DNA from: an uncultured Gemmiger sp.
GTDB taxonomy: Bacteria > Bacillota > Clostridia > Oscillospirales > Ruminococcaceae
Direction of reading: 5' to 3'
Assembly: GCA_944386225.1 (NCBI GenBank)
Contig: CALXAH010000002.1
Location: forward strand, 1-64,000
DNA: 64,000 nt
Position 1 is the first letter of the stretch. The number at the start of each line of letters is the position of its first letter. This document shows, in pieces, positions 2,680-60,227 of this stretch. The notes beneath the pieces were generated by a model that made no database searches, was not told the DNA's origin, and worked only from the letters and a program-made list of their open reading frames with translations. The translations under genes and the position numbers were made by a program.

Positions 2680-3621
2680 TTATTGCGTATAGCGCAAAAT
2701 ATCTGGACGGTGTTTTTGAAGAATGGTAATTGCCGCCTGTACAGCGGTTTCGTCACTTCCTTGTTCCAAAATCTTCTCCAATTTTCGTGTTTCAGCCCGG
2801 GCTGCTTCCTCTCTTTTCTTTTGTTTTCTTACAGTGAAATCTTTTGCCAATTTTTCTATCTGCTGTTGATTCTGAGGAAGTTTTTTGGTAATTAAGAATT
2901 CTTCATAAGCATCACAATATAACTCTACCTTGTCTGTAAAATCGATCTGCCGGCCATGGTCCAGCCATAAAATCTTATTGCACATCTCACGAACTTGATC
3001 AATAGAATGTGACACCAAAATTCCAGTAACCCCGCTTGCAAGAATTTCTTTCATCTTATCGCCACTTTTTTTCTGAAATGCACCATCACCCACGCTTAGT
3101 ACTTCATCCAAAATTAGAATATCAGGACTAACTAAGCAAGCTATTGAAAAGGCCAAGCGGCTTTTCATTCCCGAAGACAGTTGTTTAAATGGTCTCTCCT
3201 CAAACTCACGCAACTCAGCAAAATCTATAATTTGTGAGTATGTTTTATCCATAAACTTGCGTGTATATCCTAGCATTGCACCGCGCAAATAGGCATTCTC
3301 TCGTACTGTAAGTTCTCCGTCAAAACCACTAGCCAGTTCCAGCAAGGCTGCAATTGTTCCTTCTTTTCGAATTTCACCATAAGTTGGCACCATAATGCCT
3401 GATATAGCTTTCAATAATGTAGATTTCCCAGCACCGTTTGTTCCAATAATCCCCAACATATCGCCGCGATTCAACGTAAAACTTACATCTTTATCCGCCC
3501 AAAATTCCGTTACATGATATTTCCCTTGCAATCTACGCATCACATATTCTTTCAATCCAATATCTTTAAAGTCACCGGTAATATAACGGATGGATACATT
3601 GTTTGCTTCCAGAATACTCAT
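2680..3621 (-). CDS. ABC-2 polysaccharide exporter, ATP-binding subunit (Wzt/TagH-like)
   Basis: This is the ATPase of a two-component exporter for a lipid-linked polysaccharide. It has Walker A GTNGAGKST, signature LSSGMKSRLAF, Walker B ILILDEVLSVGD and the H-loop VSHS. The early motif with KDVSFTLNRGD and the SVGD after Walker B are typical of the Wzt/TagH/RfbE group. After the ABC domain there are about 80 charged, probably helical residues rather than a full carbohydrate-binding Wzt domain. I chose the ATG at 3621, which has GAGGTG just upstream. A GTG at 3633 overlapping the permease stop is possible. It is the last gene of the cluster. Confidence 0.9.
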   Translation of the reverse strand: MSILEANNVSIRYITGDFKDIGLKEYVMRRLQGKYHVTEFWADKDVSFTLNRGDMLGIIGTNGAGKSTLLKAISGIMVPTYGEIRKEGTIAALLELASGFDGELTVRENAYLRGAMLGYTRKFMDKTYSQIIDFAELREFEERPFKQLSSGMKSRLAFSIACLVSPDILILDEVLSVGDGAFQKKSGDKMKEILASGVTGILVSHSIDQVREMCNKILWLDHGRQIDFTDKVELYCDAYEEFLITKKLPQNQQQIEKLAKDFTVRKQKKREEAARAETRKLEKILEQGSDETAVQAAITILQKHRPDILRYTQ

Positions 3622-3629
3622 GTCCCACC

Positions 3630-4397
3630 TCACACATAATACAAAAATTCATGATTATATTTCTTATAAATCCAGCAGCCAATACCAATGGCAATGCAAA
3701 CATCTGCCATCATTAGCAAATGGAACCAAATCGTAGGTACTGTTCTATCTATAACTATCTTCCGAAAATATCGAATAAAAAGATAAATAGGATTAAGCAA
3801 GAAAGCATTTTGCGCTATAGGAGAATAGTCTTCAATTGAATAAAAGATTGCAGATGCATACATAAGCAACTGCGTAAATACCGTCCACAAGTATTGTACA
3901 TCCCGAAAAAAGACAAATAGTGCCGACAAGATTAGCCCCATTCCAATGTTAAAAAGTACAAGGCAGCATATAGGATAGATGAGAAATATCCATCGCCAAG
4001 TAAAAACGATTCCATCTAAAACACAGAATAAAACAAACACCGAAAGAGTTAACAAAAAATTAATCAAGCATTGTACATTTTTAGAAAATAGGAATAGATA
4101 TTTAGGCACATTTACTTTGGTGAAAATGCTGGAATTACTCATAAGAGATTCCATTCCTTGCCCCGTTGACTCATTAAAGCAACCAAAAACCAAATTTCCA
4201 CAGAACAGATAAATTGTGTAATGTTCAATATTACGCCCAAAAAATTGCGTGAACACTACCCGCATTACCATAAGAGTCATAAGTGGAGAGAGCACACTCC
4301 AAACCATTCCTAACACTGTGCGTTTATATTTTCTTTTAAAATCACGCTTCACCAGTTCCTCGAACAGAAACTTGTGACGCTGAAAATTTTTAAGCAT
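3630..4397 (-). CDS. ABC-2 polysaccharide exporter, permease subunit (Wzm/TagG-like)
   Basis: A membrane protein with about six hydrophobic segments and the N-terminal KRDFKRKYKRTVLGMVWSVLSPL typical of ABC-2 export permeases such as Wzm, TagG and KpsM. It pairs with the ATPase encoded 8 bases downstream. I start it at the ATG at 4397, which has AAAGGTG 11 bases upstream. An upstream in-frame start at 4466 would add 23 unlikely residues. It probably moves the finished or partly finished glycan made by this cluster across the membrane. Confidence 0.9.
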   Translation of the reverse strand: MLKNFQRHKFLFEELVKRDFKRKYKRTVLGMVWSVLSPLMTLMVMRVVFTQFFGRNIEHYTIYLFCGNLVFGCFNESTGQGMESLMSNSSIFTKVNVPKYLFLFSKNVQCLINFLLTLSVFVLFCVLDGIVFTWRWIFLIYPICCLVLFNIGMGLILSALFVFFRDVQYLWTVFTQLLMYASAIFYSIEDYSPIAQNAFLLNPIYLFIRYFRKIVIDRTVPTIWFHLLMMADVCIAIGIGCWIYKKYNHEFLYYV

Positions 4398-4605
4398 CGT
4401 TTGGCAACACCTTTCTGTTTTGTACGCAGAAAAACGGCATATGCCGCTATTCAAAAAGTGTTGCATCCATCATACGCATTTCATCGTAGGGAAGCAACTA
4501 GCTCTTTTTGAAAGCGGCATCCTGTCGTAAAATTTTCTTCAAAGAGAGACAAGTCCCATTACGCTGTTTCTGTTGCACAGATTTATTGGCAACAGATGGG
4601 TCATA

Positions 4606-5940
4606 TCAGAGAGCTTCAGAAATTATATCCACCATATAGTCAATCATTGCATCTGTCATCCCTGGATATACTCCAATCCAAAATGTGTCTTGCATAATGC
4701 GGTCAGTATTTTTCAAGTTTCCAATAATACGATACCCTGTTTTGCTTTCCCGCATTTGATCAAAGCAAGGGTGTTTAATCAAATTGCCAGAAAACAACAT
4801 TCTTGTTTGGATTCCTTTACTCTCTAAATGACGCACTATAGAGTCTCTATCAATCCCTTCACGAACCGTAATAAGGAACCCAAACCAGCTGGGATTACTA
4901 TTAGGAGCTGCTTGTGGAAGGATCAATTTATCCTCAAGATGTTTGAGTTTTTCATAAATACGTTTCCAATTATGACGCCGCCGTTCCACAAAGGAAGGGA
5001 ACTTTTTTAGCTGTTCACAGCCAATAGCAGCCTGCATATCTGTAACCTTTAGATTATATCCAAAATGGCTGTAAACATATTTATGATCATAGCCCTTAGG
5101 CAATTGGCCATACTGACCATCGAACCGATGTGTACAAATATTATCATAGCCAGATGGGCATACGCAGTCTCTACCCCAATCTCGATACGAATTAATCAGC
5201 CGGTGAAGCAATGGGTCGTTGGTATATACACAACCGCCTTCCCCCATCGTCATGTGATGCGGCGGATAAAAACTTGAGGTTCCAATATCTCCAATAGTAC
5301 CAGTGAAGCGTGTTTGTCCATCAATTGTATAAGTGCTGCCTAATGCGTCACAATTGTCTTCTATCAGCCATAGCCCATGCTTATCGCAAAAAGACTTTAC
5401 TGTATACAGATCAAATGGATTTCCCAAAGTGTGGGCGATCATAACTGCTTTTGTTTTCTCGCTAATGGCTTCTTCTAAATATGAGACATCAATATTGTAT
5501 TGAGGAATAGTTACATCCACAAACACAGGTACGGCTCCATACTGAATGACAGGTGTGACTGTTGTAGGGAATCCAGCCGCCACTGTAATCACTTCGTCTC
5601 CCGGCCGTATTTGCCTCTCGCCCAGTTCCGGAGCTGTCAGCGCTGAAAAGGCGATCAGGTTGGCAGAAGATCCACTGTTTACCAGGCTTGCATATCGCAC
5701 TCCTAACCATGCAGCAAACTTCTTTTCAAATTGTTCAGCAAAGCGGCCTGTTGTCAGCCAAAAATCCAGCGCCGAGTCTACAAGGCTACACATTTCCTTT
5801 TCGTCATATACACGTGCGGCATAGGTAATGCGATCGCCAGGTTCAAACTCTTTTTTATTTTCCTTAAACTCATGATAAAAGTCTGACACCGCTTGCAAAA
5901 TATACTCTCGCGCCTCTTCCTCGCTGCTCCATCTTTGCAT
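4606..5940 (-). CDS. rfbH: CDP-4-keto-6-deoxyglucose 3-dehydrase, PMP/iron-sulfur type (RfbH/DdhC)
   Basis: RfbH (E1) removes the C3 hydroxyl of CDP-4-keto-6-deoxy-D-glucose on the way to 3,6-dideoxy sugars. The protein has the DegT/StrS aminotransferase fold. The PLP lysine is replaced by histidine in SFYPPHHMTMGEGG (His228/229), the hallmark of this PMP-dependent dehydrase. A C-x-C-x7-C set (Cys259, 261, 269) fits the [2Fe-2S] ligands of E1, with Cys197 a candidate fourth ligand. The start at 5940 has GAGAGGTGA upstream. It lies 5 bases after rfbG. No E3 reductase (DdhD) gene is in the window. Confidence 0.93.
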   Translation of the reverse strand: MQRWSSEEEAREYILQAVSDFYHEFKENKKEFEPGDRITYAARVYDEKEMCSLVDSALDFWLTTGRFAEQFEKKFAAWLGVRYASLVNSGSSANLIAFSALTAPELGERQIRPGDEVITVAAGFPTTVTPVIQYGAVPVFVDVTIPQYNIDVSYLEEAISEKTKAVMIAHTLGNPFDLYTVKSFCDKHGLWLIEDNCDALGSTYTIDGQTRFTGTIGDIGTSSFYPPHHMTMGEGGCVYTNDPLLHRLINSYRDWGRDCVCPSGYDNICTHRFDGQYGQLPKGYDHKYVYSHFGYNLKVTDMQAAIGCEQLKKFPSFVERRRHNWKRIYEKLKHLEDKLILPQAAPNSNPSWFGFLITVREGIDRDSIVRHLESKGIQTRMLFSGNLIKHPCFDQMRESKTGYRIIGNLKNTDRIMQDTFWIGVYPGMTDAMIDYMVDIISEAL

Positions 5941-5945
5941 GTATA

Positions 5946-7001
5946 TCACCTCTCCATAAATTCTTGTATCTGTTTTTCCATTACATTCATGATGTCGTTG
6001 TTCTCTAACCAGGACTTGGTCCACTCTACAGTTTTATCTATTGCCTGCTCAATCTGCCAACGCGGCTTCCAACTAAATACCGATTTAATCCGCGAGCAAT
6101 CCAACTTTAAAAACGAAGCTTCATGAGGTGCATTATTTTCTCCCCGGTTTACCCACTCAGCACCTTTGCCCCAACTAGCACAGAATAGCTCGACCAATGC
6201 ACCTGTAGTAACACAATCCCCTTCGTTGGGGCCTACATTATACCATCCTTCATATCTTTTATCCATATACTGATTCTGGATAATCATTAGATATGCAAAC
6301 AACGGTTCCAGTACATGTTGATATGGTCGCACAGAGTAAGGGTTTCGCACAGTAATAGGCTTTCCTGCAATTACCGCACGCACACAATCAGGAATAATGC
6401 GATCTACAGAAAAGTCACCACCACCGATTACATTGCCAGCTCTAGCCGTAGAAATGGCAACCTCACGCTCCGCAAAAAAGCTCTGCAAGTAGCTATGGGT
6501 AACCAATTCCGAACATGATTTCGAGTTAGAATAAGGGTCATATCCATCGAGTGGATCAATCTCTCGATAGCCCCAACTCCACTCATTATTTTGGTACACT
6601 TTATCGGTAGTTACATTAAGGAAGCTACGGACACAGGTATTTGTCCGCACGCATTCAAGAACATTTACCGTCCCCATTACATTGATTTCATATGTGCTTA
6701 CCGGATTTCTGTAGCTTTCACGAACGATAGGTTGCGCAGCCATATGGATCACTATCTCGGGTTGCACTTGCTGAAAAAAGCTTTGCAAATGCTCGAGGTC
6801 TCGCACATCCCCAATCTCCGAATAAATTAGGCTTTTGACCTTGCTCAGTTCAAACAGACTAGGTTTTGTTGGTGGCTCTAGTGAATACCCATATACATCT
6901 GCCCCTAAATAATGTAGCAACACACACAACCAAGTTCCTTTAAATCCGGTATGTCCTGTTACCAGAACTTTTTTGCCCTGATAGAATGAAATATCCATCA
7001 T
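5946..7001 (-). CDS. rfbG: CDP-glucose 4,6-dehydratase
   Basis: A short-chain dehydrogenase-type enzyme that makes CDP-4-keto-6-deoxy-D-glucose from CDP-glucose with bound NAD. The NAD-binding VTGHTGFKG is at residues 13-21. The catalytic Y-x3-K is in YDPYSNSKSCSE (Tyr157, Lys161) with TTDKVY before it, and the WSWGYRE stretch is typical of RfbG. Length (351) is normal. Start at 7001 or 6998, behind a GGGGGA ribosome site. It stands between neuB and rfbH; its partner rfbF is about 9 kb upstream in the same cluster. Confidence 0.95.
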   Translation of the reverse strand: MMDISFYQGKKVLVTGHTGFKGTWLCVLLHYLGADVYGYSLEPPTKPSLFELSKVKSLIYSEIGDVRDLEHLQSFFQQVQPEIVIHMAAQPIVRESYRNPVSTYEINVMGTVNVLECVRTNTCVRSFLNVTTDKVYQNNEWSWGYREIDPLDGYDPYSNSKSCSELVTHSYLQSFFAEREVAISTARAGNVIGGGDFSVDRIIPDCVRAVIAGKPITVRNPYSVRPYQHVLEPLFAYLMIIQNQYMDKRYEGWYNVGPNEGDCVTTGALVELFCASWGKGAEWVNRGENNAPHEASFLKLDCSRIKSVFSWKPRWQIEQAIDKTVEWTKSWLENNDIMNVMEKQIQEFMER

Positions 7002-7026
7002 GCTTTCCCCCAATGGGATTTATATT

Positions 7027-8064
7027 TCAAACTAAATCCCAAGTCAAAATTGTGTCTTCCTTGCAATCTTTGCGCACACATCGTCCGACTACGATTTCCT
7101 GATACGCCGGTGAAATACCTACTCCAGGACGCTTTGCAATTAAATCATCCTGCGTAATCACTTCCCCTTCTTTCATATCACGGGTCAGTACCAGAGAGCG
7201 GCGGGCCTCTCTTCTGGGAATTATTTCACAAGGCAAAACAGTCTTTTCCTCTGTGCCCATTATCTCTTTGATCAGCTTAAAATTATTGATTGCCTTAGCA
7301 AAATCATCCGGATCGCCTGCATGATAGTGATCGTTACCAGGCAAAGACTTGTCTAAGGTAAAGTGCTTTTCAATAACTTCTGCTCCTGCAAGATACGCAG
7401 CAGTGAGTACTGTCATAGTATCATCGGGTAATGTATGATCACTATAACCGATGGTAATATCAGGGAATACATGTCTAAGTGTTTTGATCACATTCAAATT
7501 GGCGTTTTGGTATGCGCACGGGTAAGACAAAACACAATGCATCAGCACAATTTTAGGGCATTGCTCTTCCTTAATCACTCTAACCGCATATTCTACTTCC
7601 GACAAATAGGCTGCTCCAACAGAAAGAAAAATCGGCTTTCCTTTCTTTGCAATATGCCTGATAAAAGGGATATTGCTTAAGTCAGAAGAGGAAATTTTAT
7701 ACACATCCATCATATTCTGCAAATAGTCAGCAGAGGCATAATCGAATGGCGTGGATAAAAAGTCGATTCCTACTTTTTTGCAATAATTATATAGCTGCCG
7801 ATACTCCTCTTCACCAAAGTGATCATACTTTGAAAACAGTTCATACTGCGTTTTTGTCACTTCTTTTGTGGTATCCCAATAAGCAGGTGAGTTTTTGGAC
7901 GCTATTGTATTAGCTTTATATGTTTGAAATTTAATCGCGTCAATACCCACTCTTTTAGCTTCGTCAACATAATGGAGTGCTTCTTCCAGCGGTGTTACTC
8001 CGCGCTGCTTTGCTGTATCGTAAAAATTTACGCCCGCTTCTGCAATAATGTAAGGTTTATTCAT
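7027..8064 (-). CDS. Nonulosonic acid synthase (NeuB/SpsE/PseI family)
   Basis: This family condenses a 6-carbon amino sugar with phosphoenolpyruvate to give a 9-carbon sialic-type acid. Motifs include IAEAGVNF at the N-terminus, KFQTYK, FLSTPFD, the metal site region IEKHFTLDK and, at the C-terminus, an SAF/antifreeze-like domain (RRSLVLTRDMKEGEVI). Length 345 is normal. Sequence alone does not decide between sialic, legionaminic and pseudaminic acid. The neighbouring PseG-like domain favours a di-N-acetyl-trideoxy sugar. The upstream modifying enzymes (PseB, C, H or equivalents) are not in this window. Confidence 0.9.
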   Translation of the reverse strand: MNKPYIIAEAGVNFYDTAKQRGVTPLEEALHYVDEAKRVGIDAIKFQTYKANTIASKNSPAYWDTTKEVTKTQYELFSKYDHFGEEEYRQLYNYCKKVGIDFLSTPFDYASADYLQNMMDVYKISSSDLSNIPFIRHIAKKGKPIFLSVGAAYLSEVEYAVRVIKEEQCPKIVLMHCVLSYPCAYQNANLNVIKTLRHVFPDITIGYSDHTLPDDTMTVLTAAYLAGAEVIEKHFTLDKSLPGNDHYHAGDPDDFAKAINNFKLIKEIMGTEEKTVLPCEIIPRREARRSLVLTRDMKEGEVITQDDLIAKRPGVGISPAYQEIVVGRCVRKDCKEDTILTWDLV

Positions 8065-8096
8065 ATCATACAGCCCCCTTGAACCAATTATTTGGT

Positions 8097-9704
8097 TTAA
8101 AGATTGTCAATTAGATTCATAACGCGTTTTCGGCCGTCCCTAAGTTCACAGGCCAACATCTTCTTTTGGAGATTTTTTCTCTTGTCAACATCAAATTGCA
8201 GGTATTTTTCCAGCGATTTCTCTATTTGGTCATCGCTTGGATTAATACCTAAATATTCGAATCCATTTTTTTCACGGATAAAAGTATGGAAAGACTCCCT
8301 TTCATTCTGGGCAATAGATATCGACGGAATTCCAAGCATCGCCAATTCATATCCCGTTCTTCCTCGAGAGGTAACAGCAATATCACATTTGCTCATAATT
8401 TCGGGCATATTATCAATATTATACAGTACCTGTATATTTGGAAAACTATTGTATGCAAGAAGTTTATCAATGTTATTTTTTGCACGGCCAATCACTACAT
8501 AGAACTGATAAGGACTAAACTTCTCGTCACTTATAATTTTAAGCAATCTGTCAGTATAGTTTTGTGGATCAGCACCTCCGAAACTGATAAAAATATTTTT
8601 CACTTGTTCTTGTATCACAATCGGATCATAAATCAAAAATAACCTTGATGCAATAAAATACTGCGCTCCCGCACAAACATTTGCAGATTCATCGTCTTCA
8701 TATAAGGCATTGAAGACGACGTCTGCAAACTGCGCCCCGGCTCCTTCATCCTCAAAGTTAACAATCCTGGTATTCGGCAATGCGTCTCGCAATGAAAGCA
8801 TAAATTCTTTTGATGTAGAAAGGACATCATTAATTAATCGATCATATTGCTTTTCACGAAGCGCGTGTATTAATCCTGCTTCTCCATCGACAGGTATTAG
8901 ATTATGAGTTGTTTTTCCAAAGGCAGAAATGTCAGTTTGGTTTATGTCAAAATAAATATCTGGCTTAAAGAAAAATTCATCAGCTAACTCAATCACACGA
9001 TAAATATGCCCCAGTCCAAGTTTATTGTTTCCATTCACATAGAAAGCGGCATTCTTATGTTTTAGGATGTTCTCTACCTGCTTCAAATCCCCCCAGGTGT
9101 CAACATCAATAGCTTCTTTGCCGCTCAATTCAAAAAGTTTGATCTTTTCTCCCAAGCGGGATGTAGGTCTCATAAAACAAGAGCGTGTGATTAAAAAGCC
9201 ACCTGTTTCCACATAAAAAGGAGGGAGGAAGTGTCGACTAAGATCCCGTTGAATGCTTGGCACTGGTTTACCGTCTTGCATTGTCCAATAGTAGCGCGGG
9301 CGGTTCGCCACGGAAACAACAGTATCATATTGTCCTTCAATGCATACGCGAAATGCCATGTCGAGTGTATCCACTTCCAGTGTTGGCGAAATGGACTGCA
9401 TTGTAACTACATAATCGTATTCATCAAAGGGTGTTTCGTCCGATACATCATAAACCACTGCATCAAGCAGAACTTCTTGTCCACATAGAGCTGCGTTGCG
9501 CAGCTTTGCCTTAACTCCCATCTTCTTAGCAATAGTGGCGATCTCCAATGAGTTGGTAGCAACAATTATATCTGTGATATAACGAGAGCGCCTAGCATTA
9601 TTAATAACATAATACACCAACGGCTTACCGTTGATAACTCGAATATTTTTGTTAGGAACCCTCTCAGAACCTTCACATGCCGGAATCACCGCCAAGATTC
9701 TCAT
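8097..9704 (-). CDS. Fusion: CMP-nonulosonate cytidylyltransferase (NeuA/SpsF-like) + PseG/SpsG-like UDP-sugar hydrolase
   Basis: Residues 1 to about 225 form a cytidylyltransferase (IPACEGSERVPNKN, DYVVTMQSISP, DVDTWGDL), which activates a nonulosonic acid with CMP. Residues from about 226 to 535 form a GT-B type domain like PseG/SpsG (LGLGHIYRV, ISFGGADPQNYT, GYELAMLGIPSISIAQN), which in the pseudaminate pathway removes UDP from the sugar before condensation. The two flanking activities of the NeuB step are thus in one polypeptide, encoded next to the NeuB gene. The ATG overlaps the stop of the preceding gene (ATGA), indicating coupled translation. The usual ARGGS loop reads ACEGS here. Confidence 0.88.
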   Translation of the reverse strand: MRILAVIPACEGSERVPNKNIRVINGKPLVYYVINNARRSRYITDIIVATNSLEIATIAKKMGVKAKLRNAALCGQEVLLDAVVYDVSDETPFDEYDYVVTMQSISPTLEVDTLDMAFRVCIEGQYDTVVSVANRPRYYWTMQDGKPVPSIQRDLSRHFLPPFYVETGGFLITRSCFMRPTSRLGEKIKLFELSGKEAIDVDTWGDLKQVENILKHKNAAFYVNGNNKLGLGHIYRVIELADEFFFKPDIYFDINQTDISAFGKTTHNLIPVDGEAGLIHALREKQYDRLINDVLSTSKEFMLSLRDALPNTRIVNFEDEGAGAQFADVVFNALYEDDESANVCAGAQYFIASRLFLIYDPIVIQEQVKNIFISFGGADPQNYTDRLLKIISDEKFSPYQFYVVIGRAKNNIDKLLAYNSFPNIQVLYNIDNMPEIMSKCDIAVTSRGRTGYELAMLGIPSISIAQNERESFHTFIREKNGFEYLGINPSDDQIEKSLEKYLQFDVDKRKNLQKKMLACELRDGRKRVMNLIDNL

Positions 9705-11500
9705 CGATTTACCTTCTTTCGCACCCAGCTATTAAACTGCATCACCTCGTATTCTTCTTTCGGCAAGAACGGTGCAAGGTCATCGATCATTGTAGAAACA
9801 ATGCACCCATCCTCCGATTTGCGGTTCATAACACGCGGTTCGATCACCTGCTCTGGATCCTGGGGCCACTCACAAATTACTGGTCCCTCCTGTGCATAAA
9901 CCTGCTCGAGCACCTCGTCCAACTGCTCCTGTTCTTCCACCTTATAATACGGAATGTCAAATGCACAGGCCACTTTCTCAAAATCAGGCATCTCGACACC
10001 AGTGTCCTCGGTGCAGCCAGTATAGTGTCCAAACATGTTGGACTGGGAACGAACTATTCCACGATAGCCGCCATTGCAACTGATGAAAATCTTGATCGGC
10101 AAATCATAGTGACGTATCGTCATCAGTTCCTGCAGATTCAGCATAAAGCTACCGTCGCCTGTCACCAGAGTGATTCCTTGGGGGTGTGCCTTCACCGCGC
10201 CGGCCGCGGCGGGGAGGTCATAGCCCATCGACCCAAGATTCATGTTGTTAATAATTCGCTGAGCAGGTCGCTCAATGCCCAACTGAAGGACGTGAGCCGC
10301 AATGGTGCTGTTACCCAGGACGATCACACCGTCGTCAGCGATATACTTTTTCAGGTGTTGTGCAAAATAGTAGGGATTCACCTGATGTTCATGGGGGGCA
10401 TTGAACTTTTCCTGATAAATCGGATAGCGTTCACGCAGTTCCCGGCAATAAGTCAGCCATTCCTGCTTATTCTCAAGATCCAAATCAAAACTGACGGTCT
10501 GGAGATCGTGGATAACAGTGCGAATATCGGCGCACACCGGCACATCAATCCGCAGCGTGGGCTTTTTCAATTCGTTTTCATCCACATCAATTACCATGCG
10601 TCGAGCATTGGGCGCAAACTGTTCAAAGTTGAATCCGATTTGACGGAATGCCATACGACACCCCATGCCGATGATGAGGTCCGCATTCTGCATCATAAAG
10701 TTGCCAGCCCGTCCGCCGATGATGCCAAAGTTGCCAAAAAAGACCGGGTCGTCATTAGGGAACAGGTCAGCGTTGTAGGTGGGCGCCAAGACCGGAATAC
10801 CCATTTTCCTTGCCAGCGCACGGAACTCTTCGGTATGCACGGTGCTGCGGATTGCCGAACCGGTAAGAATCACCGGACGGCGAGACTGGCGGATTTCTGC
10901 TATGAATTTTTCTATATCCCATTCGCGGTTTTCGTCCGGTTTTACAAAATGGGGAAGTTTTTCTTCTTCCACCACCATACTCTGAATGTCCATCGGGATG
11001 TCCACCCAAACAGGTCCCGGGCGCCCTTCCTCTGCCAAGTACATCGCCTTTTCCAGTTCGCACAGCACCTCTTCAGGCTTGCGGATCATTACCGCATACT
11101 TGGTCATGTTCCGCACAGTAGTCACAATATCATGCTCCTGTTCGCCCATAAAGCGCAGCGGAAGCCCAGTACTGTCGACTGTGGTAGGATAACGTACCTG
11201 TCCGGAAACCACCAGCATGGGATAGTTGTCCTGATATGCACCCAGTACACCCGTAATGGCGTTAGTACCGCCAGGGCCGGTAGTGACACACACCGCGGCC
11301 ATTTTCCCACCTGCGCGGACATAGCCCTCAGCAGCCATACTGCAAGCCTGTTCATGCTGTGTATACATAACGTTTAGTCTAGGATGATGGCCGAAGGCGT
11401 CATTCAAAAACATGGCACCGCCGCCCACCAAAGAAAATACTTGATCAATTCCGTGCGCGACTATCGAGTCTGCAACAATATCTGCAATACGTTTTTTCAT
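9701..11500 (-). CDS. Thiamine-diphosphate enzyme of the acetolactate synthase family (YerE-like candidate)
   Basis: A full-length three-domain ThDP enzyme of 599 residues. Catalytic Glu50 is in YTQHEQACS, and the ThDP-binding motif is GDG at 448-450 with Asn476 25 residues later. The middle domain (ILTGSAIR, then MGCRMAFRQIG) may bind FAD, as in acetohydroxyacid synthase. Its place among rfbF, rfbG and rfbH suggests a role like YerE of yersiniose A synthesis, which transfers a two-carbon acetyl unit from pyruvate to C4 of CDP-3,6-dideoxy-4-keto-glucose. That is inference. True acetolactate synthase is less likely without ilv genes. The ATG at 11500 overlaps the upstream stop (ATGA). Confidence 0.85.
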   Translation of the reverse strand: MKKRIADIVADSIVAHGIDQVFSLVGGGAMFLNDAFGHHPRLNVMYTQHEQACSMAAEGYVRAGGKMAAVCVTTGPGGTNAITGVLGAYQDNYPMLVVSGQVRYPTTVDSTGLPLRFMGEQEHDIVTTVRNMTKYAVMIRKPEEVLCELEKAMYLAEEGRPGPVWVDIPMDIQSMVVEEEKLPHFVKPDENREWDIEKFIAEIRQSRRPVILTGSAIRSTVHTEEFRALARKMGIPVLAPTYNADLFPNDDPVFFGNFGIIGGRAGNFMMQNADLIIGMGCRMAFRQIGFNFEQFAPNARRMVIDVDENELKKPTLRIDVPVCADIRTVIHDLQTVSFDLDLENKQEWLTYCRELRERYPIYQEKFNAPHEHQVNPYYFAQHLKKYIADDGVIVLGNSTIAAHVLQLGIERPAQRIINNMNLGSMGYDLPAAAGAVKAHPQGITLVTGDGSFMLNLQELMTIRHYDLPIKIFISCNGGYRGIVRSQSNMFGHYTGCTEDTGVEMPDFEKVACAFDIPYYKVEEQEQLDEVLEQVYAQEGPVICEWPQDPEQVIEPRVMNRKSEDGCIVSTMIDDLAPFLPKEEYEVMQFNSWVRKKVNR

Positions 11501-12861
11501 TCTTGGCATCCATCCTTTAAACCGTCTTTGCTTTGAATATCTTCTTGTCGGACAAACTCTCTTTCGCATAAAAAGAGGCGATCCGCACTCAACCCACACT
11601 CCCGACAAATATCGGGAGCCACTCTAGCCGCAAGATATGCTGTCACAATTACATAGAAAAATCTTTTGCCAACATTTTGTCCAATATTCTGGGGCTGTTC
11701 AGAAATAATACCAGCATATTCAATTTTCTTAAACATATCATATATGCCTACTAATTTTGCCTTTGGATAGTACTTTTGTATCAGCTCATGTAATTTCTGA
11801 GTATTCTCATTAACCCCCCAAAATGCATACTCATATTCGTCCTCTTGATTCCATGTGTTTTTTATTTTTTCCCACGTGCGACGATAATAATAAGTTTGAT
11901 TGGAACTATTTGTTTCGTTTGGGAAATATGTTCTTTGCCGATCCGTCAATCGTAAAAGATCACCATATTTTTCTACTTCTTGGGTTATTCTATCCTGACT
12001 AGTTTTCAAAATAAGTTGATGAGTAGCTTCATAATCAACAAGCGGCGGATCCCACTGTATTTCTGAAAATGTTTCTTCGGTGTAAATAGGAACATAGTTT
12101 TTTAACCAGCTAAAACGGAATGTATATCTCTCAAGAGTTAAAATTACCGGTATGTCTTTAGCAAGTGACAAAACCGCACCATGAAATCGGGATGTGACCA
12201 CCATCTTCGGCCTGCTATTATAGCATGCAAACACCTCTGCTGCCCATTGACTTGGTATAAATCCAGGTCCAACTTCCTCTTCACTACAATATAATTCTTG
12301 ATTTAAAAAGACTATCTCATTTCGAATATTTTCTGGCACATAATCGTGAACGCTATAGGGAACATCAATGAAAACGATCTTGTCCGTATATTCTTGCTTT
12401 GCTTTTCCTGTGATTTCCAATATCGATGCTGTACAACCATTTAAATAAGCTGGTATTCCCAAATTCCGCATACACAGATAGGATCTTTCATCACGACAAC
12501 CGATGGGGGCATAGCATTTTAAACACTGAATTTGGCGCTCATTAAGATTGGTATCAGTCAAGCTAATCCCGAGAAAAATCGGATGTATATCCGGAGAAAG
12601 TTTTTCAAGTATTTTATTATATCCTACATAGCTGTCTAATGCGATATTGAGCGCGACAATTAAAGACTCTCCGCGATATGTAATCAGTTCCGGAAGGCTA
12701 ATTGCCTGCATCTCATTTTTTGAGATGCCTATTTTTTCGTACAATTGCTTAATCACAAGATACTCAGCAGCATCTCCAATATTCAGTAGAGCTTTTCTAT
12801 TCCAGGAGTTTTTCCAATAACTCCGCACTGTATCATCAAAACTGATATACCCAAATTTCAC
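11497..12861 (-). CDS. Polysaccharide pyruvyl transferase family protein with C-terminal extension
   Basis: Residues 1 to about 300 match the pyruvyl transferase family (CsaB/WcaK type). NIGDAAEYLVIKQLY is near the start, APIGCRDERS in the middle, and VTSRFHGAVLSLAKDIPVI is the conserved histidine region. These enzymes put ketal-pyruvate on a glycan, using PEP. About 130 extra C-terminal residues (WGVNENTQKLHEL, KLVGIYDM) look like a small Rossmann-type domain of unknown role. The start is a GTG with GGGAG 10 bases upstream. Which sugar is modified cannot be told. Confidence 0.85.
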   Translation of the reverse strand: MKFGYISFDDTVRSYWKNSWNRKALLNIGDAAEYLVIKQLYEKIGISKNEMQAISLPELITYRGESLIVALNIALDSYVGYNKILEKLSPDIHPIFLGISLTDTNLNERQIQCLKCYAPIGCRDERSYLCMRNLGIPAYLNGCTASILEITGKAKQEYTDKIVFIDVPYSVHDYVPENIRNEIVFLNQELYCSEEEVGPGFIPSQWAAEVFACYNSRPKMVVTSRFHGAVLSLAKDIPVILTLERYTFRFSWLKNYVPIYTEETFSEIQWDPPLVDYEATHQLILKTSQDRITQEVEKYGDLLRLTDRQRTYFPNETNSSNQTYYYRRTWEKIKNTWNQEDEYEYAFWGVNENTQKLHELIQKYYPKAKLVGIYDMFKKIEYAGIISEQPQNIGQNVGKRFFYVIVTAYLAARVAPDICRECGLSADRLFLCEREFVRQEDIQSKDGLKDGCQE

Positions 12862-12902
12862 CGTTCATTTTCTCCCAATTTTTATCGATTGCTACATCCG
12901 TT

Positions 12903-14183
12903 TTACCAGAGTCCTTTTTCAAATACAACTACGTGCTCATAATGTTCAGCATTCCATATAATTGCTGTACGCATTCCACTAGACATAGATCCCACCAGAG
13001 AGTCACATTTAGAGAGCAAAGCCACCTCTGTTAAATAGTCCAAGTTTGTCTGGTAACGTTGCCCTGGCGCATACATAGGATTCTGCGTAACACCATCTGC
13101 CGGACGGGTAAGATGATCTCTAAGCCTAGGGAGTACAATAAGATATTCCCCAAATGCTTCCTTCATGGCATCCACCAATTCCTGCATCTCATTCATAAAA
13201 TAAATATAATGAATATCCCATTCTTGACAATAATTTCGCACAGCTCTAATTAGTTCATTGATTTTTGCCTGTTTAGGGTGGCTATGCATAGGCGTACCTG
13301 TTTGTCCATAAGAAGCTCCACGAACTACTACGCCAAGAACTTTTTGCTCCCTCGGAAATAGCTGTTTGTAAATATTCTCGATATAGTTGGTCGTTACTTC
13401 GTTAAGTGATGCAAGACTAGCATACTGTGGACACTGCTCAGCAAGCCGCTGGGCATACTGCATAAATGGTGGCTTCATGGCCGCATCAGGAATATAACCA
13501 TACTGTCCAATATTTTGAGTGGACAGAATTACATTTTTGCTTTGATATACTTCTTCCAGGGTATAATCACTTGGCTGTTCCCAATAATATTCCCAAGCAT
13601 TTTCCGTACCGTTAACAGGATAGTCTTCACTATGGGGCATTTTCCCATAATTTTTCCAGTCAACGACAGGAATATACCCATTCTCAACCGCATAGGACAA
13701 TTTTTGAAGTGTATAGTAATATTGGGTAAGTAAATTGGCAATATTTCTGAAGATTAATTCGTTAGGCTGTAGATAGTAATACGGGCGAATGACATAGAAG
13801 GTTTTGTCTGGATTTGCTCTACCATAAGAAACATACTTTTCTCGTCCTTTTACAAACAATTCAAACGTCAAGATTGCTCGTTTCCAAGTTATTTTCAGCG
13901 AACGTTTGTCCCTCAGCACATCTGTATACATTTGATTTATAATATATTTTATATATCCATATGCTGATGGAGAAACAAGAAGCGCAATAGATTTAAAAAG
14001 CGCTATAGCCAAGGACAATAGTAATACCAAGGGAAATAATATTACCCGCCAAAAAATTTTCAATTCCAAATTGCTGGTAAAGGCCTGCCTAATACCATTG
14101 ACTCTCAGTTGAATGCCTTTCCGCATCTTCAACGGCAACATTCCATAAAATAATATGTTAAATATTTTCCCCAAAAATTTCAT
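12903..14183 (-). CDS. Cluster-specific protein, fucosyltransferase-like; paralog of the 15104-16153 product
   Basis: A 426-residue protein with a positively charged N-terminus and one hydrophobic segment (about 44-70), so probably held at the inner face of the membrane. The soluble part contains PVNGTENAWEYYWEQP, YQSKNVILSTQN, a conserved arginine in VLGVVVRGASYG followed by HPKQAKINELI, and YLTEVALLSKCDSLVGSMSSGMR. The Arg motif and the final Ser-Gly region resemble O-/alpha-fucosyltransferases (NodZ/FUT8-type GT-B folds), so a glycosyltransferase role is inferred. It shares these blocks with the protein encoded 1 kb upstream. GAGGAG precedes the ATG. Confidence 0.6.
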   Translation of the reverse strand: MKFLGKIFNILFYGMLPLKMRKGIQLRVNGIRQAFTSNLELKIFWRVILFPLVLLLSLAIALFKSIALLVSPSAYGYIKYIINQMYTDVLRDKRSLKITWKRAILTFELFVKGREKYVSYGRANPDKTFYVIRPYYYLQPNELIFRNIANLLTQYYYTLQKLSYAVENGYIPVVDWKNYGKMPHSEDYPVNGTENAWEYYWEQPSDYTLEEVYQSKNVILSTQNIGQYGYIPDAAMKPPFMQYAQRLAEQCPQYASLASLNEVTTNYIENIYKQLFPREQKVLGVVVRGASYGQTGTPMHSHPKQAKINELIRAVRNYCQEWDIHYIYFMNEMQELVDAMKEAFGEYLIVLPRLRDHLTRPADGVTQNPMYAPGQRYQTNLDYLTEVALLSKCDSLVGSMSSGMRTAIIWNAEHYEHVVVFEKGLW

Positions 14184-14210
14184 TATAGATTCTCCTCACA
14201 TCTGCTTGAA

Positions 14211-15098
14211 TCACTGATACAATAGCGAAAGCAAATCAATATTCTCTTCAACAGAACGATAATACTCTATCAACTTTTTAATGCTTTCCTCCAAATCTCG
14301 TACCACGAATCCTGTACACTCCGCTTTTAATCTATCACTATTTGCAGTGTACTCTCTTGCATACCCTGGCAGGCACACATAAATTGGAACATCATTTCCA
14401 CTTATTTCTCGTACTTTTTCCGCAATATTCAATAAAGAGACTCTTTTTCCACTGCACACATTGTACGTATGATACTGTTGCTCAGAATCGATGAACCACT
14501 TTACCGCGAAACAAAAGTCATTGATATCTAAATAGTCAAAATACGTATTCTGCCGAATTGTAATTGGAAGATTTTTGATGGCTTTGCAACAAGCACCTGA
14601 AATAAAAGTAGTTCTCCAGTTCTCATATTTGCCAAAAAGGCCAAACACTCTAAAATTATAGATATTGTTACTTTGTTCAATTGTTCTGCCAATTATATAC
14701 TTTGCCAACCCGTATTGATTGTTTGGAATCGAATTATTGAACTCATCTTCTTTTACATTCACAATATCCTTAGTTTTATCAAATTCGGCACCTGATCCGA
14801 AATACAACATTTTTCCAAACAACTCACAATTTTTTTGCAAGTTATAAAACATTCTCAAATCTTGTTCCAGTTCAGATTGAGACGCGGTTGGTGTAAAAAA
14901 GCGAGGGTTTCTACATACAGCACCATTTACCACAACATCCGGCCTCAGATTGTCTAAATAGCGGTGCACACAGCATTCATCTAACAAATCCAACTCTTCG
15001 TGAGAGGGACAGTGAATCTCATACCTTTTGAACGGTGCCAAAAATTCACACAGATTTTTTCCAATAAAACCACTGGCACCTAAGATCAATACCTTCAT
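14211..15098 (-). CDS. NAD-dependent epimerase/dehydratase (sugar-nucleotide reductase candidate)
   Basis: An extended short-chain dehydrogenase with ILGASGFIGKN at the N-terminus, Ser in YFGSGAEFD and Y-x3-K in NQYGLAKYIIG. It is most like small sugar-nucleotide reductases/epimerases (GDP-fucose synthase, CDP-abequose/paratose synthase, YerF). In this cluster it is the best candidate for the last, C4-keto or side-chain-keto reduction of the CDP-3,6-dideoxy sugar. The ATG at 15098 has AAGGAG 10 bases upstream and is preferred over 15107 and 15140. Placed between the two fucosyltransferase-like paralogs. Confidence 0.8.
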   Translation of the reverse strand: MKVLILGASGFIGKNLCEFLAPFKRYEIHCPSHEELDLLDECCVHRYLDNLRPDVVVNGAVCRNPRFFTPTASQSELEQDLRMFYNLQKNCELFGKMLYFGSGAEFDKTKDIVNVKEDEFNNSIPNNQYGLAKYIIGRTIEQSNNIYNFRVFGLFGKYENWRTTFISGACCKAIKNLPITIRQNTYFDYLDINDFCFAVKWFIDSEQQYHTYNVCSGKRVSLLNIAEKVREISGNDVPIYVCLPGYAREYTANSDRLKAECTGFVVRDLEESIKKLIEYYRSVEENIDLLSLLYQ

Positions 15099-15103
15099 GA
15101 GTT

Positions 15104-16153
15104 TCATTCTCCTTTTCGCGAATCCTGGAATAAACCACAATCAATTACTTTAATTCTATTACTTTCAATAGAGCCGCGCACCAATGCATACCGCATTCCA
15201 CTAGTAACAGCACCTATAAGCCCTTCACAGTTTGCTAGTAACTCCATCTCGGTCAAATAGTCAAGACAGGTTTGGTATATGTTTTTCCCCTGATACATTT
15301 CCTTATTTTTGTCCAACCCGTACTCTTTTCCGACTTCAGCACGCAGCCGATGATATGCCAAGAGTTTTTCTCCAAAAACATCCCGAAACCGCTCCACCAC
15401 AATTTGTGCATCGCTCGCAACTAAAACAGCATCCATCTCCCAAGCATCAAACTTTTTTTGAGTTTCCCGAATGAGATCGTCGATTTGCGGTTGAATTGGG
15501 TGCCCCTCACCATGTCTTTTACTCTCCACAGCATGAGCTCCCAGTCGAATATTTACCCCGAGGATTCGCTTCTCTGAACTCATCACTTTTTTTACAGCGG
15601 AGTTCACATACATTTGTGTCTGTACATTCAGAGGCACACCATTCGCAAGATTATGATAAAATGCCAATGTCTCCTTATCCTGATATTCTTGAGGGTTATA
15701 TCCCATATCCCACTGCCAAAACCAACTTTGCTTGGACAAAACAACATTTTTGCTTTGATATGCCTCTTCCAGTGATATACCACCCGGTTGCTCCCAAAAA
15801 TACTCCCATGCATTCCGTGTACCGTTTACCGGCTCTAGCTGACTATTGTACACAGGGTAATTAAGCTGATCAACCACAGGTATCCAGCCCTTGGTTTTTG
15901 CATACTGAATGTGAGATAGAACATAGAAGTAATTGGCAAGCAGATTGTGCACCGGACCAATATAAAATGGGGATTTATCATCAATGCTGCGAATAATATA
16001 AATCGTTTTTTCCGGATTTTGTGAACCGAATGATTTTCTGCGCTCTCTTGTAACAAAGTGGTATAAAACATTTTTAACTGCTATTCCAAACTTATATTTT
16101 CTAAATTGCCCTATCAGCTGCTGTAGGGGCTCTATCAATCCCATGATTTCCAT
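15104..16153 (-). CDS. Cluster-specific protein, fucosyltransferase-like; paralog of the 12903-14183 product
   Basis: About 349 residues sharing blocks with the other paralog: PVNGTRNAWEYFWEQP, YQSKNVVLSKQS, ILGVNIRLGAHAVES followed by HPIQPQIDDLI, and YLTEMELLANCEGLIGAVTSGMR. It lacks the membrane segment of its paralog. The conserved arginine and the spacing to a Ser-Gly motif recall the nucleotide-binding part of fucosyltransferases of the NodZ/FUT8/O-FucT groups, but the similarity is weak and the activity unknown. The start is uncertain (16174, 16153 or 16144); all overlap the end of rfbF. Confidence 0.6.
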   Translation of the reverse strand: MEIMGLIEPLQQLIGQFRKYKFGIAVKNVLYHFVTRERRKSFGSQNPEKTIYIIRSIDDKSPFYIGPVHNLLANYFYVLSHIQYAKTKGWIPVVDQLNYPVYNSQLEPVNGTRNAWEYFWEQPGGISLEEAYQSKNVVLSKQSWFWQWDMGYNPQEYQDKETLAFYHNLANGVPLNVQTQMYVNSAVKKVMSSEKRILGVNIRLGAHAVESKRHGEGHPIQPQIDDLIRETQKKFDAWEMDAVLVASDAQIVVERFRDVFGEKLLAYHRLRAEVGKEYGLDKNKEMYQGKNIYQTCLDYLTEMELLANCEGLIGAVTSGMRYALVRGSIESNRIKVIDCGLFQDSRKGE

Positions 16154-16908
16154 GGTGCTGTACCGTCCATCCACATTTTTTCAAGCTGTTCATGTTCCTT
16201 TTTGGTGTCCATACACTGCCAAAAGCCAGTGTGCATATAGGAAGCCAATTCATTATTTTGCGCAAGTCTTTCCAGCGGTTCCTTTTCAAAAATAGTGCTA
16301 TCATTCGAAAGATAATCGAATATCTGCGGTTCAAGCACCATATAACCTGCATTGATGGGGTCACCATCCATTTTAGCCTTTTCACGAAAAGCTTTAACTG
16401 TGCCGTCTTCAATCTGTAAGACGCCAAATCGCTGTTCCACTTTTACTGCGGTCAGCGTAGCAATTTTTTTCTGGCTCTTATGGTATTCCAGCAGTTGCTG
16501 GATATTCACATCACACACACCATCACCATAGGTCATAAAGAACGGCTCATTACCAACATACTTCTGAATACGTTTGATTCGCCCACCAGTCATTGTGTAC
16601 AGGCCGGTATCCACAACGGTAACTTTCCAAGGCTCTGTTTTCTGGTTATGAACAATAACCTTATTTCCCTGTGTAAAGTCAAACGTTACATCGCTGGTGT
16701 GCAAAAAATAATCAGCAAACCATTCTTTAATCATATGTTGCTTATACCCTGCACAAATAATAAACTCATTGAAACCGTAATGAGAATATTCTTTCATGAT
16801 ATGCCAAAGAATCGGCATGCCTCCAATTTCCAACATTGGTTTTGGACGGTACTGTGACTCTTCCGAAATTCTGCTGCCGATACCTCCTGCAAGCAAAACC
16901 ACTTTCAT
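16135..16908 (-). CDS. rfbF: Glucose-1-phosphate cytidylyltransferase
   Basis: Makes CDP-glucose from CTP and glucose 1-phosphate, the entry step to CDP-dideoxy sugars. The signature VLLAGGIGSRISEES, then RPKPMLEIGG, is at the N-terminus. TYGDGVCDVN and INAGYMVLEP are further diagnostic blocks, and the length of 257 is normal. I start at the ATG at 16908 with GGGAG 8 bases before it. Together with rfbG and rfbH it completes the route to CDP-3,6-dideoxy-4-keto-glucose, apart from the unseen reductase. Its 3' end overlaps the next gene. Confidence 0.96.
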   Translation of the reverse strand: MKVVLLAGGIGSRISEESQYRPKPMLEIGGMPILWHIMKEYSHYGFNEFIICAGYKQHMIKEWFADYFLHTSDVTFDFTQGNKVIVHNQKTEPWKVTVVDTGLYTMTGGRIKRIQKYVGNEPFFMTYGDGVCDVNIQQLLEYHKSQKKIATLTAVKVEQRFGVLQIEDGTVKAFREKAKMDGDPINAGYMVLEPQIFDYLSNDSTIFEKEPLERLAQNNELASYMHTGFWQCMDTKKEHEQLEKMWMDGTAPWKSWD

Positions 16909-16934
16909 TTTAATGACTCCCATCTTTTTTCATT

Positions 16935-17783
16935 TTATTTTCCGCTCAAAAACCTGCTGGCTTCTTTTATAATGCTTCGTCTGCGCGTTCCTGGCGGAAG
17001 CAGGAAATACTTTGTTTTTGCACGCAAATAGCCAACATTTCGAAATTCAACCTTTGGGATTTCCGCGACATTCCATCGGTCGCGATTTTGTTCAGTCCAG
17101 CACCCCAGAAGGCGTTCTGCAATATATCCATCTACACGCATTTCCTGGCGTGAATATCCTGTTGTATCCACTCTCTTGTCAAATTCGAACAACAAAGGAA
17201 AAAGCCAATTGCAATATTCGTCAAAAGCCGCCTTGCGCATAATGAACATATTGCCAAAATATTGCGTAGTCTGATTTAAATATTTCTGCCAGGCGAACAC
17301 TGATTCTGGCCGCATCTCACCAAGTATTTGACCTATTAACGCCAGATCCTTGGCATGATGGTACGGAGCACGTTCATAATGCTTTTTGACCGATTGCTTC
17401 ATGTCCTCTCTTTTGGGGAGGATTATGTCATGTGACTCAATGTATTCAGGAAAATGATCATAACCCAGCTGCAAAAGCAATTCATTAGAAGGCTCTCTGC
17501 GAAAAATATAGGGACGGCGCTGTTTCAGACCTGGATATAAATATCGTCTGTAATGAAACAGCCCATAAAAATCCGCTTTGTAGTTTTTCCAAGCCCAATA
17601 TTGGGCAGTCAATTCACAATACGAACGGTTTCGCTCAGAAATATTATCGCCCGTATCATCATATAGGAAGCCCGAAAAATGTTCTTGCGCCAAAGCTGCA
17701 CCCACTTGAATCGGAACGAGCAGCGGGTTTTCTGCAATGCTTTTGTTCTCATGGCAGCAAACGAACAGTCGTATGCTTGACAT
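16935..17783 (-). CDS. DUF4422 family glycosyltransferase
   Basis: A 282-residue cytoplasmic protein of the DUF4422 family found in capsule and exopolysaccharide clusters. The diagnostic run is DNISERNRSYCELTAQYWAW followed by FYGLFHYRRYL, with NMFIMRK and a Glu/Arg-rich C-terminal block (YIAERLLGCWTEQN). Members are thought to be retaining or inverting glycosyltransferases; donor and acceptor are not predictable. A weak GGGGATGG ribosome site stands upstream. Confidence 0.85.
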   Translation of the reverse strand: MSSIRLFVCCHENKSIAENPLLVPIQVGAALAQEHFSGFLYDDTGDNISERNRSYCELTAQYWAWKNYKADFYGLFHYRRYLYPGLKQRRPYIFRREPSNELLLQLGYDHFPEYIESHDIILPKREDMKQSVKKHYERAPYHHAKDLALIGQILGEMRPESVFAWQKYLNQTTQYFGNMFIMRKAAFDEYCNWLFPLLFEFDKRVDTTGYSRQEMRVDGYIAERLLGCWTEQNRDRWNVAEIPKVEFRNVGYLRAKTKYFLLPPGTRRRSIIKEASRFLSGK

Positions 17784-17953
17784 ATATGTTTTCCATCCCC
17801 TAAGGCGTACATTTCGCCATTACAAAAATTTACAGAAAATCTTATTGATTATATCACATGCCCATTTGTACCTCAAGGCGCGTGTCCGCAAGCTATATTA
17901 GCCGCTTGTATTTGCACACCTTGATATCCAATCAGCCTACTTCGCGCAATATT

Positions 17954-19135
17954 TCAATTATATTTACGTTTTTCCTTGACCGATTTTTGCATTTGTCTGT
18001 ATACATTTGTTGGCAAACGATCCGCACCTGCACCTTTTCTTGCAAGCTTTTCCTTTTGAATGTAATACTTCGAAAGATTTTGCTGTGCCATTTCTATGTT
18101 GTAATGCCTATTTTCCAATTCTTCTGTACGCTGGCTGAACGCCAGAACAGTCCGCGCCCATCTTTCGGGGTCATCAAGAGCGAGCTGTACAGCCTTGCTT
18201 GTCAGTAAAATTTCCTCTGTCATCCGGTCAGAGAATACACAGGGCAGCCCATTCGCCTGGGCTTCCAGCGCTACGACGGGAAGGCCCTCGTAAAAGCTGG
18301 GCAGGCAGAACACATCCATAGCCGAATAGAGTTTCGACACATCTTGGCGTGCGCCGGTGAAGACAACCTTGTCCTCCAAGCCCTGCTCCCGGACACTTTG
18401 ACGGATCGTTTCCTGCAACTCACCTTCTCCCACCAGCAGAAGAAACGCGTTCTCCCGCAGGCGCAGGACCTCTTTGAACACTTGCAGCAAAAACGGATGG
18501 TTCTTTTGATACATGAACCGCCCCACGTGCCCCACTACAAATGCATTTTGCGGAATATTCAGCTCATTTCGCAAGCGGACTCGTGCATCCTGATCAAATT
18601 CATATTTTTTTGTATCAATAGCATTTGGCATCACATGAACCCTGCCCGCATTAAAGTAGCGGTTTCCATACATCCATCGGCCAGCTTTTTCACCACAGGC
18701 AAAATAGTCTGTAGCGAACAATTTATTGAATGGCCGCAGAATATATTTCAGCAGGGTCTTTTTTCCTTCTCCCCAATGTGCAGTCGTATGATTATGGCAA
18801 ATTCGCACTGGCACGCCTGCTCTCCAGGCAGCAAAAAGCGCAAATACTGACATAGTAGACAAATGCGCATGAACAATAGCGTATTTTCTTTTTTTGAATG
18901 CATGATACAGCGTCTGGTGATAGGCAAAAGGATGATTGTAAGGCGGAACTAGAAAGACTCCTGCGCCCAAACGCTCTAATTCTTCCCTTTGAGGAAAAGT
19001 ACTATTAGCCGCAAAGTAAAAATCAAACTGTATTCGGTTGCGATCAATATGACGATAGTAGTTCATTACTACCGCTTCAATTCCTCCGCTGTCCATACGA
19101 TTCAAGACCTGTGCTATACGCAGCGCTTCTCCCAT
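17954..19135 (-). CDS. Glycosyltransferase family 4 (EpsF-like)
   Basis: A GT-B glycosyltransferase with the N-terminal RIAQVLNRMDSGGIEAVVMNYYR typical of the EpsF/GT4 group, HNHTTAH in the N-lobe, GHVGRFMYQKNHPFL in the linker and PSFYEGLPVVALEAQANGLP, the E-x7-E donor phosphate motif. It adds one sugar of the repeat unit on the cytoplasmic side. I prefer the ATG at 19135, with AAAGGGA 6-8 bases upstream. The ATG at 19156 overlaps the stop of the preceding gene and is possible. Confidence 0.92.
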   Translation of the reverse strand: MGEALRIAQVLNRMDSGGIEAVVMNYYRHIDRNRIQFDFYFAANSTFPQREELERLGAGVFLVPPYNHPFAYHQTLYHAFKKRKYAIVHAHLSTMSVFALFAAWRAGVPVRICHNHTTAHWGEGKKTLLKYILRPFNKLFATDYFACGEKAGRWMYGNRYFNAGRVHVMPNAIDTKKYEFDQDARVRLRNELNIPQNAFVVGHVGRFMYQKNHPFLLQVFKEVLRLRENAFLLLVGEGELQETIRQSVREQGLEDKVVFTGARQDVSKLYSAMDVFCLPSFYEGLPVVALEAQANGLPCVFSDRMTEEILLTSKAVQLALDDPERWARTVLAFSQRTEELENRHYNIEMAQQNLSKYYIQKEKLARKGAGADRLPTNVYRQMQKSVKEKRKYN

Positions 19136-19152
19136 ATCAGATCCCTTTTCTG

Positions 19153-59501: not shown

Positions 59502-59526
59502 CCGCCGCACACTCCTCTTTTTTCCG

Positions 59527-60221: not shown

Positions 60222-60227
60222 GATTTG

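Follow-up and report, generated by a model that had tools for sequence, protein, structure and literature searches.

A predicted YerE-like branched-sugar cluster with a NeuB-family synthase and a damaged NeuA-PseG fusion in an uncultured Gemmiger sp.

The window, a stretch of 64,000 nucleotides from an uncultured Gemmiger sp. (GenBank assembly GCA_944386225.1, contig CALXAH010000002.1, positions 1 to 64,000), carries RfbF, RfbG, RfbH, a thiamine diphosphate (ThDP) enzyme and a short-chain dehydrogenase/reductase (SDR) in one operon-like run on the minus strand, with the motifs that an earlier note on this DNA had described. Protein families, trees and gene neighbours indicate that this run is probably a branched-sugar cluster built around a YerE-like carboligase. 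The run also encodes a NeuB-family synthase and a NeuA-PseG fusion, and we propose, at somewhat less than even confidence and with every chemical step inferred, that the donor of the ThDP enzyme would be an ulosonic acid made by NeuB.

The ThDP enzyme (9701..11500, minus strand) has the fold motifs of ThDP decarboxylases, namely Glu50, counted from its own Met, and GDG-x25-N, both as previously claimed. Its best match among solved structures was 8RPH (388.9 bits over 586 residues), named JanthE, a YerE-like enzyme, by the paper citing it (PMC12188165). The next best was a plant acetolactate synthase, at 216.7 bits. In a careful tree of 24 rows, which included JanthE, Escherichia coli IlvI and the genome's own acetolactate synthase, and in which YpYerE was not a row, the window enzyme grouped with JanthE and sugar-cluster enzymes and was split from IlvI and the own synthase at 100/100. 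The earlier note had named clustering with acetolactate synthases as the outcome that would speak against its proposal, and neither the scores nor the tree gave such clustering. The enzyme keeps the Arg of the synthase DDR motif, and the synthase Trp is replaced by Ser; both residues presumably have roles in the synthases. By these results the protein is YerE-like and is not an acetolactate synthase. The best NCBIfam model is indeed that of the acetolactate synthase large subunit, as would be expected of a synthase of central metabolism, but its score of 342.5 bits falls under the cut-off of 538.35, JanthE fits far better, the tree speaks for a separate group, the Trp is lost, and a separate synthase, 30% identical to the window enzyme, is present on contig C5. 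We therefore rejected this reading as very improbable. Active-site columns were compared as a marker of donor size; the groups differed at some columns with ancestry uncontrolled, and no donor was called.

RfbF (DdhA, glucose-1-phosphate cytidylyltransferase, 16135..16923), RfbG (DdhB, cytidine diphosphate (CDP)-glucose 4,6-dehydratase, 5946..7004) and RfbH (DdhC, CDP-4-keto-6-deoxyglucose 3-dehydrase, 4606..5943), all on the minus strand, scored 378.9, 455.5 and 729.7 bits against curated NCBIfam cut-offs of 300.25, 278.45 and 423, respectively. RfbH contains the stretch FYPPHHMTMGEGG, in which a His occupies what we take to be the usual place of the pyridoxal phosphate lysine, and CVC-x7-C is also present, in line with the two motifs (His for Lys, C-x-C-x7-C) of the earlier note. 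Together with the ThDP enzyme and the SDR (14211..15098, minus strand; Pfam Epimerase, 73.9 bits), which is likely the reductase of the new branch ketone, these proteins resemble the yersiniose A pathway of Yersinia pseudotuberculosis (DdhA-D, YerE, YerF). The window differs from that pathway in its extra NeuB and NeuA-PseG and in having no DdhD by motif search. No Fer2 motif, as expected of a DdhD/RfbI-type 2Fe-2S reductase, was found in any frame of the cluster by this search, which used a motif and not a profile. The sole Fer2 motif match in the window, at 58386-60227, was read as chance. Contig C19, away from the cluster, encodes the genome's one PF00175 protein with Fer2 at its C-terminus, and RfbH probably draws its electrons from a general carrier.

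To place the cluster among its relatives, we surveyed the 295 genomes of the order and found the ThDP enzyme (E < 1e-80) in 12 of them. We compared 91 YerE-like loci, made up of 11 from the order and the best 80 of 592 confirmed in a genome collection, which is not a random sample. Counted by sequence identity, RfbF, RfbG or RfbH occurred in 56 of the 91 loci and all three in 33; for the ThDP loci of Bacillota the corresponding numbers were 30/50 and 18/50. The core claim, RfbF, RfbG and RfbH with a YerE-like ThDP enzyme, is sound, but because this arrangement is common in Bacillota it is not new for Firmicutes, of which the earlier note had known no well-described example. What stands of that note is a predicted carboligase of the YerE type, next to genes whose products would make CDP-3,6-dideoxy-4-keto-glucose; its rarity and, as discussed below, the two-carbon branch do not stand as stated.

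The 1306 neighbour frames of the 91 loci, none of which had a Fer2 motif (again a motif search, not a profile), were clustered into recurrent families. An Epimerase-type SDR was present in 38/91 loci, mostly directly adjoining the ThDP gene, and the SDR type of the window in 12/91. These two types never co-occurred (0 observed, 5.0 expected, p 0.001, where this and the following p values ignore shared ancestry), a pattern that fits two reductases standing in for each other at a single step. HAD phosphatases were found in 19/91 loci, and a family related to AroB (TIGR04425, putative cyclizing sugar phosphate phospholyase) lay beside the ThDP gene in 11/91 (e.g., L070:15096-16154), eight of these 11 with a FabG-like SDR.

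Three further families bear on the donor: HMGL-like proteins (24/91 loci), whose nearest model is 4-hydroxy-2-oxovalerate aldolase, below its cut-off, NeuB (17/91) and HpcH/HpaI (11/91). At least one of them was present in 51/91 loci, with overlap only in L091. HMGL-like proteins co-occurred neither with NeuB (4.5 expected, p 0.0047) nor with HpcH (2.9 expected, p 0.034). Since such families form 2-oxo acids, which are the donors of YerE-like enzymes, and since ErwE, a YerE-like enzyme, prefers 4-hydroxy-2-oxo acids, the neighbouring enzyme may supply the donor. The other 40 loci, some of them on short contigs, showed none of the three families and may use pyruvate. Separately, in the window's assembly, contig C17 at about 44.3-46.7 kb (L134:315-2706) has a frame that carries LLDCTLRDGG, the start seen in HMGL-like proteins, and lies beside a KdsB-like cytidylyltransferase; the 18 kb covered there gave no ThDP match.

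In the window, the donor-type neighbour is NeuB (7027..8064, minus strand), a synthase with a SAF domain that would join phosphoenolpyruvate and an aldose to a 2-ulosonic acid. It was recognised by Pfam as a NeuB-type synthase (NeuB 260.3 bits, SAF 38.9 bits) and reached 307.8 bits with the NCBIfam NeuB model, below its cut-off of 399.65, and was also below the PseI cut-off. Next to it lies the NeuA-PseG fusion (8097..9704, minus strand), composed of a cytidylyltransferase domain (Pfam CTP_transf_3, 66.3 bits) and a PseG-like nucleotide-sugar hydrolase domain (NCBIfam PseG 96.3 bits, below the cut-off of 153.55). The window NeuA domain reads IPACEGSERVPNKN, where the closest fusion, L151 (47% identical), reads IPARAGSKGIPNKN. 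An Arg and a Lys of this motif, conserved in all 17 other NeuA sequences including eight fusions, are Cys and Glu in the window, and QPTSP and RQ, kept in 8/8 other fusions, are QSISP and RH. The DxD pair of NeuA and the GxGH motif of PseG are both intact. The domain is otherwise recognisable, and the changed residues belong to the conserved cytidine triphosphate (CTP) motif of a cytidine monophosphate (CMP)-sugar synthetase. Assuming that the Arg and Lys handle CTP, these changes fit a loss of CTP use by the window NeuA. Within the genus, the fusion was found in one of four genomes, the window's own, and the best sequence elsewhere was 47% identical.

We asked how NeuA is distributed over NeuB loci with and without a ThDP gene. 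Across the order (295 genomes), NeuB loci scoring above 200 bits numbered 12 and came from 10 genomes, after 20 of 32 match rows (41-57 bits) had been read as 3-deoxy-D-arabino-heptulosonate 7-phosphate synthase-like and excluded. Four of the 12 adjoin a ThDP enzyme of the YerE-like family (the window, L024, L025 and L026). With a NeuA model, NeuA was present around all eight NeuB loci of the order that lack a ThDP gene, and it was found in the stretches of neither L024, L025 and L026 nor 13 further loci with NeuB and ThDP genes on the same strand (L052, L032, L047, L067, L084, L085, L086, L093, L095, L098, L103, L104 and L105). The contrast of 8/8 against 0/16, with the window excluded, gave a Fisher p of 1.4e-6 (0.006 for the order alone), and looks stronger than warranted owing to shared ancestry and five short contigs, those under 11 kb being L047, L085, L095, L104 and L105. 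Counting the window, NeuA is present in 1/17 NeuB-ThDP loci. L091 was excluded from the 16 for having its NeuB and NeuA on the other strand, and L150, whose contig begins just before NeuB, is uninformative. Of L028 and L115-L119, retrieved by a NeuA-PseG query, only L028, also found in the NeuB survey, counts among the eight. Four of the eight NeuA-positive controls contributed sequences to the NeuA model; L196, L197, L198 and L200 did not.

Genome-wide searches with PF02348 gave no match in G688, the genome of L052 and a metagenome-assembled genome (MAG) of unstated completeness, and the only matches in G193 and G280, the genomes of L024 and L026, were read as IspD or GlmU. In G067, NeuA adjoins that genome's other NeuB, and in G037 both modules occur in one genome on different contigs. 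Near NeuB and the ThDP gene, L024 (14496-15587) and L026 (7884-8954) each encode a protein in which a KdsC-like phosphatase is fused to a GmhA-like isomerase, with scores under the curated cut-offs. Such a protein would agree with a free ulosonic acid and hints at a heptose-derived one. On contig C1 at about 89-105 kb (L135), the genome that the window belongs to carries another NeuB, together with NeuA, in a legionaminic-type cluster whose other genes were read as NeuC, LegB, LegC and a nucleoside triphosphate transferase. An NCBIfam scan of ten proteins of the window's cluster revealed none of the precursor genes PseB/C/H or LegB/C/H.

The closest relative of the ThDP-SDR pair comes from L052, a Clostridiales MAG operon in which LegB, LegC, NeuD, NeuB and NeuC exceed their cut-offs and the ThDP and SDR genes lie among them. 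The window ThDP enzyme is sister to that of L052 (100/99), and so is the window SDR (94/89). By plain identity the ThDP enzyme of L052 (43%) is no nearer than that of L030 (44%), but the pairing has separate support because the two SDRs are 49% identical. Beyond these two proteins, the window and L052 have NeuB in common. L052 differs from the window in having LegB, LegC, NeuC and NeuD in place of RfbF, RfbG and RfbH, none of which was found in its 21.8 kb, and it has no PseG and no NeuA match in its genome.

Based on these observations, the branch may be longer than the two carbons from pyruvate that the earlier note had proposed, because NeuB and a NeuA-PseG protein whose motif is damaged are part of the cluster, and because the sister ThDP and SDR genes sit in a NeuB operon without RfbF, RfbG and RfbH. 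In the route we propose, RfbF, RfbG and RfbH would produce CDP-3,6-dideoxy-4-keto-glucose, as their family membership suggests. The PseG domain would release an aldose from a nucleotide sugar, and NeuB would join the freed aldose and phosphoenolpyruvate into a free 2-keto acid. The ThDP enzyme would decarboxylate this acid, which is no longer activated with CTP, and attach it to the C4 ketone of the CDP sugar. The product would have a long polyhydroxy branch at C4, whose new ketone the SDR would reduce. More broadly, though tentatively and on the lower side of even confidence, a nonulosonic-type acid made by NeuB may have been diverted from CMP activation to serve as ThDP donor, so that two sugar skeletons would be fused by a carbon-carbon bond; NeuB would then be one of three interchangeable donor-making families in these loci, and the altered NeuA of the window would reflect the decay after that switch.

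Several points weigh against a NeuB-made donor. Ulosonic acids are mostly closed rings. The exclusivity of the donor families is incomplete, as NeuB and HpcH co-occurred once (2.1 expected, p 0.68). The window NeuA domain is still full length, keeps its DxD pair and reaches 227.8 bits against the NeuA model. The window and L052 ThDP enzymes were flagged in a quick tree as a meeting of long branches, and the SDR pairing of 94/89 is just under the tool's star. Further, nine NeuBs from loci that lack a ThDP gene share 41-54% identity with the window NeuB, against 35% for the NeuB of L052; eight of those nine adjoin an intact NeuA-PseG, and one is at a contig end. Because the window NeuB is nearer to these NeuA-PseG-linked proteins than to that of L052, it may belong to a separate CMP-sugar module, and NeuB with NeuA-PseG may either have arrived in that form and been put to another use, or go on producing a second sugar. 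Known donors range from C2 to C8 according to a review of these enzymes (PMC12247030), a range that a C9 acid would exceed.

An alternative is a yersiniose-like route, in which pyruvate would be the source of a two-carbon unit that the ThDP enzyme transfers to CDP-3,6-dideoxy-4-keto-glucose and the SDR reduces. NeuB and NeuA-PseG would then serve the same glycan with another, unrelated sugar, a CMP-activated nonulosonic acid. YpYerE uses pyruvate on the same acceptor, as the review reports (PMC12247030), and the 40 loci without a 2-oxo-acid family agree with such a donor. NeuB with NeuA-PseG and no ThDP gene in the stretch was seen at eight loci (L028, L115-L119, L149 and L151), and the contig C1 cluster could supply precursors. 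However, two conserved NeuA residues are lost in the window, NeuA was found in none of the 16 other NeuB-ThDP loci, the ten scanned cluster proteins include no PseB/PseC- or LegB/LegC-type gene of the cluster's own, and the closest ThDP-SDR pair, in L052, has no adjoining RfbF, RfbG and RfbH. We regard this route as doubtful, and as somewhat less likely than the one with a NeuB-made donor, which we favour. It could also be imagined that the order of events is reversed, the branched CDP sugar being the PseG substrate to which, once freed, NeuB adds phosphoenolpyruvate, yielding a carbon-branched ulosonic acid. In its favour, the genes follow each other closely in a single run and PseG keeps its GxGH motif. 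Against it, the CMP-activating domain is damaged, nothing PseG-like was read among the neighbours in L052, L024 and L026, and PseG acts on uridine diphosphate sugars in known pathways. This reading seems improbable.

Among characterised systems, JanthE of Janthinobacterium, the best solved relative of the window enzyme, has CDG where the window enzyme has GDG (PMC12247030), and its physiological substrate is described as unknown (PMC12188165). ErwE does not use pyruvate, and the YerE-like enzymes ErwE and MMAR_2332, of the erwiniose and caryophyllose pathways, both take a hydroxylated 2-oxo acid as donor instead of pyruvate; the part of the review available to us states no link of that donor to NeuB, and the likeness to the window is one of description (PMC12247030). 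In Shewanella oneidensis, the flagellin-modification operon sfmABCDE encodes a NeuB-domain protein, a ThDP enzyme and an SDR, and gene loss shifts the flagellin mass, with a nitrogen-free part of the modification of C9H16O7 to C11H20O7 whose structure is left open (PMC3765264). By gene content, the three protein types are common to sfm and the window, and sfm has no RfbF, RfbG and RfbH; in the part of the paper available to us its authors relate SfmA to PseI and propose no donor role (PMC3765264). Among the papers listed in a search that left most subscription journals outside, no other one linking NeuB with a ThDP sugar enzyme was evident by title.

The complete run spans 2680..20553 on the minus strand. 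Neighbouring genes mostly overlap slightly or are separated by short gaps, the largest values being 139 and 170 bases. It contains, in this order, an ABC-2 exporter of the glycan (ATPase 2680-3633, permease 3630-4466; Pfam ABC_tran 87.3 and ABC2_membrane 53.5 bits), RfbH, RfbG, NeuB, NeuA-PseG, the ThDP enzyme, a polysaccharide pyruvyl transferase-like protein (11497..12861; PS_pyruv_trans 41.4 bits), an unassigned protein (12903-14183), the SDR, a second unassigned protein (15104-16174), RfbF, and, at 16935..20553, a DUF4422 protein, a group-1 glycosyltransferase and an initiating sugar-phosphate transferase (DUF4422 245.9, Glyco_trans_1_4 101.2 and Bac_transf 237.2 bits). The two unassigned proteins had no Pfam or NCBIfam match at E 1e-5 and are perhaps glycosyltransferases. 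The gene list of the earlier note was right as far as it went, and left out NeuB, NeuA-PseG, the pyruvyl transferase-like gene, the two genes without a match and the lack of DdhD. The G+C content of the run is 38-48%, compared with 55-65% in the DNA on its right. A Mutator-type transposase gene and an IstB-like gene adjoin the cluster at the left contig end (52..2160). Given this low G+C and these genes to its left, the surface-sugar cluster was probably acquired.

YerE-like enzymes are wanted as catalysts for tertiary alcohols, and more than 200 have been predicted, with the sugar structure lacking for the vast majority according to the review (PMC12247030). If the donor can be read from the 2-oxo-acid enzyme next door, the branch would become predictable from the genome for many of these clusters. 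If a NeuB-made acid is indeed the donor, sialic-acid-type synthases would gain a role outside the making of CMP sugars, and a testable chemistry would be suggested for the unsolved flagellin modification of Shewanella.

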